Shown here piece by piece: positions 53,603 through 54,888 of a stretch of DNA of 64,000 nucleotides. A program made the position numbers and the translations under genes. This DNA is from Lachnospiraceae bacterium. Lineage in GTDB: Bacteria > Bacillota > Clostridia > Lachnospirales > Lachnospiraceae. The stretch spans positions 1-64,000 of the forward strand of contig JAGAIZ010000044.1 in the NCBI GenBank assembly GCA_017626325.1, given 5' to 3'. The notes beneath the pieces are model-generated. The model did no database searches, was not told the DNA's origin, and was given only the letters and a program-made list of their open reading frames with translations. Each line of letters opens with the position of its first letter. Position 1 is the first letter of the stretch.

Positions 53603-53651
53603 ACAGGAAATGGGGAAGAACGGATAAGAGAAGAAAGGCGGGTTATTGAAG

Positions 53652-54323
53652 ATGAAATATGAATTCGAGGGTACGGTGGAATTTAGAGAAAATGAGAATA
53701 CCATTGCCGTGCCGTTTAATGTATGGGAAGTGTGCGAGAAGGTGGGAGACGCACCGGTCAGAGTCTGCTTTGACGACGTATGCTTCATCTGTGATCTGGT
53801 GCCGAAAGGCCAGGGGTATTATGACATTCCGGTCAATCAGGACACACTTTCTAAGGTTGAACTTGGTAAGAAATATCTGATCTCTATTGAGATCGTAGGG
53901 AATGTGGCTGGTGTCGGCGGCAACAGCCCGTACAGCGTAGAGCATCCGATCCGCAGGATTGACGGAATCGATCTGGTGACACAGCCCTGGGACGGCTTGT
54001 GCGGACAGTCCTGCATTGCTATGATTGCGGGAACGACGCTGGATGAAGCGAGCGATATTATGAAGTGCAGGGAATGGCAGGCGAACATGAGCAAGATGAT
54101 CATGACGCTGGAATACCTGGGTATCCGCCATGCGGATAAGATTGTGTATACGCTGGGCAAGGAAGTGGAACTGCCTCACTGCTGTATCATCATGGAGCGG
54201 ATGGGACGCTACAGCCATTATCTGGTTGGATTTGACGGGAAATATTATGACCCGAATCTGGGTATCTTGAAGGAGTTTGATCTGACGAAGGTGGTCGGCT
54301 ATCTGGAGATCATCACGGAATAG
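53652..54323 (+). CDS. DUF1905-like domain fused to a cysteine-peptidase-like domain
   Basis: The N-terminal 85 residues (VEFRENENTIAVPFNVWEV, APVRVCFDDVCFI, GYYDIPVNQDTLSK) match the DUF1905 pattern of a small beta-barrel. The C-terminal half (about 110-223) looks like a papain or C39-type fold: QPWDGLCGQSCIAMIAG supplies a Gln/Cys pair, and GRYSHYLVGFDGKYYDPN a His and Asp/Asn. No signal peptide is present. A TTG at 53646 is better spaced from AAAGG than ATG 53652, so the start may be two codons earlier. The gene has its own promoter and terminator. Peptidase activity is inferred from residue order only. Confidence 0.7.
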   Translation: MKYEFEGTVEFRENENTIAVPFNVWEVCEKVGDAPVRVCFDDVCFICDLVPKGQGYYDIPVNQDTLSKVELGKKYLISIEIVGNVAGVGGNSPYSVEHPIRRIDGIDLVTQPWDGLCGQSCIAMIAGTTLDEASDIMKCREWQANMSKMIMTLEYLGIRHADKIVYTLGKEVELPHCCIIMERMGRYSHYLVGFDGKYYDPNLGILKEFDLTKVVGYLEIITE

Positions 54324-54457: not shown

Positions 54458-54486
54458 TTGTATGAGAAGGAAATGTGTGCTATACT
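54458..54486 (+). promoter_or_regulatory. Promoter of the predicted toxin mRNA
   Basis: TTGTAT (54458-54463) and TATACT (54481-54486) are spaced by 17 bases, with an extended -10 (TGC before TATACT). The start near 54493 gives an 82-base leader. Confidence 0.75.
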
Positions 54487-54542
54487 TCGGACATGGGAAA
54501 CCATAGAGCCGGGCGGCTTACCCTCTTTTTCGGAGGAGCTAA

Positions 54543-54566
54543 CCCTCCAGACGAAAGAAAGGAGGG
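54543..54566 (+). promoter_or_regulatory. Hairpin that masks the toxin ribosome binding site
   Basis: CCCTCC (54543-54548) can pair perfectly with GGAGGG (54561-54566), which is the core of the AAAGGAGG Shine-Dalgarno sequence of the toxin. Sequestered ribosome binding sites are common in type I toxin mRNAs. Confidence 0.65.
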
Positions 54567-54574
54567 CGTTGTCA

Positions 54575-54667
54575 ATGGTTACATATTCTGATTTGATTCA
54601 GTTTTGTATTTTCATTGTTGCCCTTGTCGGATTGTGTTATACAATTTTCAAGGGAAAACGAAAATAG
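54575..54667 (+). CDS. Holin-like small membrane toxin (type I TA candidate)
   Basis: The 30-residue peptide starts MVTYSDLIQF, has one hydrophobic helix of about 17 residues (FCIFIVALVGLCYTIF) and ends in the basic tail KGKRK. This matches the layout of putative holin-like type I toxins (TxpA/BsrG/Fst-like), which insert in the membrane and damage the cell when overproduced. A strong Shine-Dalgarno sequence lies 9 bases upstream but can be masked by CCCTCC. A longer frame from 54458 exists, but its start lies in the promoter. The antisense RNA predicted on the other strand would cover the 3' end. Toxicity is inferred. Confidence 0.75.
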   Translation: MVTYSDLIQFCIFIVALVGLCYTIFKGKRK

Positions 54668-54694
54668 CCGCCACTATTCGCAGTAGTGACGGCT
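54666..54694 (-). terminator. Terminator hairpin of the antisense RNA
   Basis: AGCCGCCACTA (54666-54676) and TAGTGACGGCT (54684-54694) form a stem with one mismatch. Only the - strand has a T-rich tail after it; the + strand continues GAACCG. Confidence 0.68.
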
Positions 54695-54723
54695 GAACCG
54701 TAAAAAGTTTGGCTTAATTATTG

Positions 54724-54754
54724 AGGGTAGCCGCTTCTATGGCTTTCCCTTTTT
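54724..54754 (+). terminator. Probable terminator of the toxin mRNA
   Basis: AGGG and AGCC (54724-54732) pair with GGCT and CCCT (54741-54750) across a small internal loop, followed by a run of five T. It lies next to the start point of the antisense RNA. Confidence 0.6.
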
Positions 54755-54762
54755 ATGCCTTT

Positions 54763-54791
54763 AATATAGCATACTTTGCGGTAGGATTCAA
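54763..54791 (-). promoter_or_regulatory. Promoter of the antisense RNA
   Basis: On the - strand TTGAAT (54791-54786) and TATATT (54768-54763) are spaced by 17 bases, with an extended -10 (TGC before TATATT). Confidence 0.75.
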
Positions 54792-54859
54792 GAACCAAAC
54801 ATATGTTCAAAAAGAAGCGATCGCGGATCGCGAAATGTCAGGTTGTCAAGAAAAAATAC

Positions 54860-54888
54860 TTGACACCGTATCATCGCTATAGTAGAAT
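54860..54888 (+). promoter_or_regulatory. Promoter of the ylxM-ffh operon
   Basis: TTGACA (54860-54865) and TAGAAT (54883-54888) are spaced by 17 bases. The -35 box forms one arm of an inverted repeat, TGTCAAG (54844-54850) and CTTGACA (54859-54865). Confidence 0.88.

Follow-up and report, generated by a model that had tools for sequence, protein, structure and literature searches.

The locus at 54458-54791 of the window (the whole 64,000-nucleotide stretch of a Lachnospiraceae contig that was analysed) is very probably a chromosomal type I toxin-antitoxin module, consisting of an mRNA for a Hol_Tox peptide and an antisense RNA with a proposed control of translation. As judged from sequence, the predicted antisense RNA gene overlaps the toxin mRNA and has its own conserved promoter and a strand-specific terminator. 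Comparison of copies indicates that the parts are conserved as one unit, that the leader of the predicted toxin mRNA pairs with its own 3' end, and that selection maintains the antisense terminator on its own strand. The predicted unit recurs as a patchy family, and a hypervariable segment within it may be a recognition cassette, perhaps the private tag of each copy.

A 30-codon ORF is flanked by a DUF1905 gene on one side and, on the other, by genes taken to be ylxM and ffh, names given from the appearance of the ORFs. The locus is ordered as facing promoters, leader, Shine-Dalgarno (SD) hairpin, peptide ORF, antisense terminator and mRNA terminator, and the predicted toxin mRNA is roughly 260 nt long on the + strand, with a predicted start at 54493. 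The mapped parts, with the evidence for each, are as follows.

54458-54486, + strand: toxin mRNA promoter with extended -10, TTGTAT-17-TATACT (sequence; recurrence of the pattern in units).
54495-54524, + strand: 5' leader of the toxin mRNA (covariation in 42 units, strand test on wobbles, repeat on 78 units).
54532-54537, + strand: upstream SD-like copy GGAGGA, an alternative anti-SD partner (sequence, ensemble pairing).
54543-54566, + strand: SD-sequestering hairpin, anti-SD CCCTCC 54543-54548 with SD GGAGGG 54561-54566 (folding; sequence kept in alignment A2).
54575-54667, + strand: Hol_Tox peptide ORF, 30 aa, coordinates including the stop codon (PF16935 score; codon-position identities).
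54666-54694, - strand: antisense RNA terminator hairpin with T-rich tail on - (terminator scan; wobble test).
54692-54721, - strand: hypervariable cassette, carried by both RNAs (6-base block mismatch profile across 47 close pairs).
54724-54754, + strand: toxin mRNA 3' end and terminator (the trailer), complementary to the 5' leader (scan, folding, covariation).
54657-54756, - strand: predicted antisense (antitoxin) RNA, about 100 nt (promoter and terminator positions; model R1).
54763-54791, - strand: antisense promoter with extended -10, TTGAAT-17-TATATT (scan; recurrence of the pattern in units).

A sequence-only reading of the same DNA had placed the ORF, promoters and hairpins, and its coordinates were correct when the sequence was read. 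The terminator scan contained the hairpin at 54666-54694, whose T-rich tail is on the - strand. The + strand hairpin at about 54724-54749, followed by a T-run, was also present, the scan reporting only part of it (54729-54744). The sequence-only reading did not include the pairing between the two ends of the mRNA, the hairpin that sequesters the SD, or a second copy in the same genome. In the surrounding 1.7 kb a simple scan gave 7 terminator-like sites versus 1.1 expected, and 5 promoters versus 3.1 expected, which is within chance; the + promoter, whose -35 is poor, was missed. Since the simple promoter scan alone cannot separate the locus from chance, it was told from chance by comparison with relatives. 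A chance ORF with chance promoters was ruled out, as the whole unit recurs amid unlike flanks.

A DNA search with the 361-bp unit gave matches in 33 of 98 genomes, its own included, where the second copy lies on another contig. The first (genus) set comprised 47 units taken from DNA matches and aligned; their insides are alike and their flanks look unlike by eye. Removal of 5 units, each either partial or with its leader replaced, gave a 42-row set, and removal of 2 units a 45-row set. The second set comprised 101 units obtained from named records with an antisense-terminator pattern, not counting 9 that the first set contains as well, 15 truncated at a locus end and 1 duplicate; 78 of the 101 pass an intact-frame pattern. 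All 101 second-set loci were tested and have no sampled 80-mer in common with the first set; the genomes may overlap.

A covariance model of the antisense RNA (R1) was searched against genome samples, and R2 likewise; presence counts are lower bounds because stricter filters were used in searches over more than 40 genomes. Within the genus, R1 gave matches at E ≤0.001 in at least 39 of the 77 genomes. Of these matches, 60 fall below 1e-12; they are spread over 33 genomes, one of which has 7. In the family sample, matches at E ≤1e-6 were found in at least 62 of 299 genomes (62 of 298 genera). The phylum sample gave 2 of 199 genomes, these being its own and one with a weak match (9.2e-7) in another family, i.e. 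1 of 198 others. The match at the window locus (54658-54762, 102.4 bits) follows by construction, the window copy being in the model. The strict antisense-terminator pattern was found in at least 120 stretches of named records; 37 of the 80 record titles listed say Lachnospiraceae, and other titles among the matches listed name Blautia, Dorea, Eubacteriales, Clostridiaceae, Bacillota and, once, Bacteroidales. The family carrying the unit is inferred to be Lachnospiraceae. Literature searches on Hol_Tox, on Lachnospiraceae type I modules and on antitoxin variability or cross-talk gave, among the matches listed, no title or abstract opening that describes the family. The word Lachnospiraceae was absent from the text covered by a term search of a review of Clostridia type I modules (PMC6563280).

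Several features of the neighbourhood were recorded separately. An inverted repeat, TTGTCAAGAAAAAATACTTGAC, lies at 54843-54864 and overlaps the -35 of the ylxM-ffh promoter, where it may be an operator or a promoter feature. The motif TGTCAA-N-CTTGAC occurs at 26 of 30 ylxM loci of the genus (whole locus, both strands) and adjoins ylxM in the upstream DNA. A 6-bp hairpin, GCGATC/GATCGC, with a T-rich tail on the - strand is present at 54817-54833 between the module and ylxM. The gene at 53646-54323 has an N-terminal DUF1905 domain (PF08922, 30 bits versus a cut-off of 24) and a C-terminal part that, by eye, presumably resembles a C39-type peptidase. Antisense-model matches were seen upstream of ylxM in two other species, at the same distance as in the window (about 170 bp) in G102:C121 and at about 1.1 kb in G105:C146, and at about 4 kb from ylxM in G036 and G051, so that the surroundings of ylxM may be a long-standing site of the module. 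Among the 30 ylxM loci, with upstream DNA viewed by eye, model matches lie only at the window's locus and at L230; the sequence covered for the nearest relative, G046, stops about 190 bp upstream of ylxM.

Both promoters were read in the sequence as the sequence-only reading had described them. The + promoter has TTGTAT (54458-54463), 17 nt and TATACT (54481-54486), and the - promoter has TTGAAT (54791-54786), 17 nt and TATATT (54768-54763), each with TGC before the -10. The + promoter pattern, defined as TTG at -35 plus TGnTAnnnT, was found in 39/47 genus units and 59/78 second-set units, versus 24/940 with shuffled upstream DNA. The - promoter pattern was found in 32/47 and 63/78 units, respectively, versus 1/940 shuffles. 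Genus units without the pattern numbered 8/47 for + and 15/47 for -.

The peptide runs from ATG 54575 to TAG 54667 and has 30 aa, MVTYSDLIQFCIFIVALVGLCYTIFKGKRK. Judged by eye it is a small peptide with a hydrophobic core and, as had been proposed, a basic tail (KGKRK). The proposed likeness to Hol_Tox was borne out by PF16935, which scored 32.7 bits versus a cut-off of 23.3 over profile positions 1-34 of 34. The PepG1 equivalog (NF041589, SprG1/SprF1) scored 19.9 bits (E 4e-4), far under the NCBIfam cut-off of 70. Codon positions were compared in 41 units: over 780 of their pairs, identity was 0.77 at positions 1+2 and 0.73 at fourfold sites, a small difference, and in the 55 pairs with ORF identity ≥0.9 the values were 0.96 and 0.89. 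A 69-aa ORF starting from TTG 54458 was disfavoured, because the upstream frame and sequence vary among related units and its Hol_Tox match is limited to residues 40-69.

The peptide frame is open in 45 of the 47 genus units (the start is altered in one of them and the stop in another), two of the open frames having been missed by the pattern and recovered by reading; one of the other two units is cut by a contig end and one is without the 5' half. The 23 second-set units that fail the pattern were read individually. Two encode a full-length peptide with an earlier stop, 9 are without the 5' half and keep the antisense terminator, trailer and - promoter, 5 are without the DNA on both terminator sides, and 7 have frame damage, deletions, insertions or rearrangement. 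Among named records, the Sporofaciens musculi unit (L133) keeps its frame intact, unlike those of Coprococcus comes and Petralouisia muris. On these counts, relatives with a broken frame in an otherwise conserved unit, which would have spoken against the sequence-only reading, are few. Toxin-only copies could not appear in the second set, as it was fetched with the antisense-terminator pattern.

The order of loss was examined in the genus. Eight of the 60 strong antisense matches (E <1e-12) were without a leader-model match within 250 bases; on reading, one was cut by a contig end and 7 had a toxin half that was lost or badly decayed. Of 56 leader-model matches, 53 had an antisense partner and 3 were at contig ends, one with a partial partner. 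Antitoxin-only loci thus numbered 7/59 and toxin-only loci 0/53 among strong matches (Fisher p 0.014), an asymmetry of 7 cases obtained with two models of unequal sensitivity. It would speak indirectly for neutralisation of the toxin by the antisense RNA. Weak antisense matches were excluded from this count; 20/24 of them were without a leader match and could be remnants, distant whole units or false matches. Two species (loci L238 and L239, in G049:C2 and G106:C5) have a common antitoxin-only locus with flanks similar by eye. Hairpins and a - promoter-like stretch are kept there, a hint that an antisense RNA may be kept even without its toxin.

In the predicted toxin mRNA, leader 54495-54507 is complementary to 54736-54748, and 54513-54524 to 54724-54734. 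Covariation was found across relatives: in the 42 units the leader-trailer helices and the antisense terminator had 97.7% standard pairs, versus 36-51% when slid by 1-3 columns, 9/31 pairs were altered on both sides, and the covariation score was matched by 0/500 shuffles. One pair of this set takes three forms: U-A (21 units), G-C (20) and C-G (1). In the 78 second-set units, which played no part in deriving the leader-trailer helices, 93.3% of leader-trailer pairs were standard, versus 42-58% when slid. Read on the mRNA strand, the leader-trailer helices contained 55 G-U versus 8 A-C cells and 9 other mismatches in the first set, and 120 G-U versus 39 A-C and 65 other in the second set. The wobble counts and the second-set pair count exclude 1/22 leader-trailer pairs (columns 36-277, badly aligned); with this pair restored, the first-set G-U count would be 81 versus 8. 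Read on the - strand, the antisense-terminator hairpin contained 57 G-U, 0 A-C and 3 other cells, 45 of the 57 G-U cells being one invariant U-G pair. Wobbles that are G-U only on the - strand indicate that the terminator hairpin is selected in the antisense RNA, and the opposite-strand patterns indicate that the leader-trailer helix is selected in the mRNA. Because the leader is complementary to the 3' end, the first bases of the antisense RNA would be almost identical to those of the mRNA.

Leader and trailer, with the promoters, might instead be the terminal inverted repeats of a MITE-like mobile element with the peptide as a passenger, an explanation judged unlikely. Dispersed copies (7 strong antisense matches in one genome), patchy presence, flanks that are non-homologous by eye and inverted symmetry at both ends are all in keeping with such an element. 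The nearest relative by YlxM (G046), a 93%-complete assembly, is also without an antisense- or leader-model match. Strand-specific wobbles, however, are unexpected for repeats acting as DNA, and both promoters and both terminators are retained. No match to the unit was found in phage and plasmid records either, though 20 stretches of viral contigs contain the antisense-terminator pattern. The unit could be mobile and a toxin-antitoxin module simultaneously.

It is less likely still that the locus is another kind of peptide gene, for a small membrane protein or an antimicrobial, in which the 3' hairpins stabilise the mRNA and no antisense RNA is made. Hol_Tox is by name a 'putative' toxin family, and the antisense RNA is predicted from sequence, which leaves some room for such a gene. 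Against it are the conserved - strand promoter, the hairpin with wobbles only on the - strand, and the existence of antitoxin-only loci. The proposed type I toxin-antitoxin arrangement is supported by the layout, the promoters and both terminators, which are kept across copies with unlike flanks.

Two partners are available to the SD (GGAGGG), the leader and the CCCTCC a little upstream of it, and the upstream SD copy competes. Ensemble folding was done for 42 units. The probability that the SD is unpaired was <0.2 in 27/42 full-length mRNAs, in 41/42 without the trailer and in 42/42 without the antisense-covered part, and its median was 0.17 in full-length mRNA, which is slightly more open, versus 0.01 without the trailer. 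Median leader-SD pairing was 0.09 when the trailer was present and 0.91 when it was removed, so antisense binding is predicted to move the leader to the SD. In the full-length mRNA of the window copy the anti-SD/SD pairing was 0.97 on folding, and the SD was paired in all three states (unpaired 0.01-0.02); the proposed flip would therefore change the partner of the SD there and leave its access as it is. A simple on/off SD switch in the window copy was unsupported.

In the type I toxin-antitoxin mechanism that is proposed, the + strand would give the mRNA of roughly 260 nt and from it the 30-aa Hol_Tox membrane peptide, and the - strand an antisense RNA of roughly 100 nt complementary to the mRNA 3' end. 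The full-length mRNA would be poorly translated because its SD is paired. Once antisense RNA occupied the 3' end, the freed leader would pair with the SD, and RNase III would then cleave the sense-antisense duplex, as it does for BsrG/SR4 and TxpA/RatA. Loss of the presumably short-lived antitoxin would allow the peptide to be made and the membrane to be damaged.

The module was compared with published systems as these are described in excerpts of the cited papers. The antitoxin of BsrG/SR4 (Bacillus subtilis) pairs with the mRNA 3' end, binding lengthens the SD-sequestering helix, and the first contact of SR4 is made through its terminator loop (PMC6562991). The unit resembles BsrG/SR4 in its 3'-end pairing, in an SD held in a helix and in the predicted re-pairing at the SD (PMC6562991). 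It differs in that the leader is predicted to take the SD once the 3' end is occupied, and in the many dispersed copies and the hypervariable segment of the Lachnospiraceae unit. TxpA/RatA (B. subtilis) has a similar 3'-end overlap with an antisense RNA that, here too, would recruit RNase III; RatA was reported to cause decay only, with no conformational change (PMC6562991). Unlike TxpA/RatA, the module has no Rfam antitoxin family reaching threshold: in a search of the window only a tRNA did so, and the best score at the locus was 22.1 bits for RefA9 (RF02844), versus a threshold of 49 (E 0.41). Like the unit, AapA/IsoA (Helicobacter pylori) has a toxin mRNA whose full-length form shows a long-distance 5'-3' interaction and which has alternative hairpins that sequester the SD, but aapA3 mRNA is activated by 3' trimming, whereas loss of the 3' end is predicted here to close the SD (PMC6733600). 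SprG1/SprF1 (PepG1, Staphylococcus aureus) was compared by peptide, and the likeness is weak (NF041589, see above).

Principles resembling those proposed here are already known from zor/orz of E. coli, where duplicated modules are separated by a variable pairing region, V1 (PMC3919570), and where antitoxin-only loci occur, the reason given being that a toxin lacking its antitoxin is costly (PMC11264685). The zor/orz genes are divergent and share 18 nt of complementarity, and the V1 of OrzO spans 3 nt (PMC3919570), whereas the unit has a cis antisense RNA of about 100 nt and a cassette of about 28 nt.

The cassette was located in 47 close pairs of units (≥90% identity in leader plus ORF), with mismatch counted in 6-base blocks. 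Block mismatch along the transcript was ≤0.17 outside three variable spots: the block around the predicted start, 54488-54493 (0.25), the cassette, 54692 to 54721 (0.33 to 0.68), and, as the second variable spot, the antisense terminator loop, 54680-54685 (0.26). At core identity ≥0.9, cassette identity was 0.63 in the 38 between-genome pairs and 0.65 in the 9 within-genome pairs; the flanks of the cassette in those 47 pairs had 0.93 and 0.91, and shuffled cassettes 0.57. The cassette was kept (identity >0.8) in 13% of the 38 between-genome and 11% of the 9 within-genome pairs.

The comparison was repeated on 64/78 second-set units, 14 being left out because they had no recognisable trailer anchor. 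In 52 pairs at 0.90-0.95 core identity the cassette had 0.66 versus 0.91 and 0.93 for the flanks, and 10% of pairs kept it; in 8 pairs at ≥0.95 the values were 0.77 versus 0.90 and 0.96, and 38% kept it. Antisense terminator loops were identical in 6% of 63 close second-set pairs. Fourfold sites of the ORF were 0.89 identical in comparable pairs, so the cassette diverges faster. Two tandem copies in one genome were 99.4% identical in the core and had unlike cassettes (0.62), and another pair of copies on one contig had the same cassette.

The cassette lies in the middle of the sense-antisense overlap and adjoins the terminator loop. In the antisense RNA of many copies it can fold into a short hairpin; this tendency is modest overall: the shuffle P was ≤0.1 in 22% of 45 units, and the hairpin of the window copy is weak (4 bp, shuffle P 0.885, z -0.26). 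The mean z over the 45 units was -0.8 for the first segment and -1.5 after its ends were shifted and the next bases added, post hoc. A strong cassette hairpin as a general rule was only partly supported, the better z coming from a segment picked after the first result.

It is tentatively suggested that the cassette, which is replaced much faster than neutral sites and sits between conserved flanks, serves as a private tag, by which copies in one cell would avoid cross-silencing and antitoxin-only loci would guard against incoming modules with the same tag. The cassette and the terminator loop might then make the first contact of the two RNAs, and the cassette might keep copies in one cell from silencing each other; both steps are less certain than the rest of the mechanism. 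Non-cognate antisense RNAs have long complementary flanks too, so specificity would have to be kinetic. With similarly guarded expectation, the cassette may have no recognition role and be a spacer free of constraint, a hotspot of mutation or a patch spared by homogenising gene conversion. The weak hairpin of many copies, the window copy included, agrees with this, as do the close pairs that retain the same cassette, and conversion between copies is possible. Divergence faster than at the fourfold sites of the adjacent ORF argues the other way, as do the position in mid-overlap, the variability of the terminator loop, and the fact that 38/47 close pairs are from different genomes.

As a putative tag, the cassette offers a handle on what keeps near-identical antisense systems apart within a cell, with 42 full-length and 78 intact natural variants of the unit already identified. 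Should the predictions for the family hold, about one in five of the sampled Lachnospiraceae genera (62/298) would be carriers of such a module, some genomes in multiple copies.
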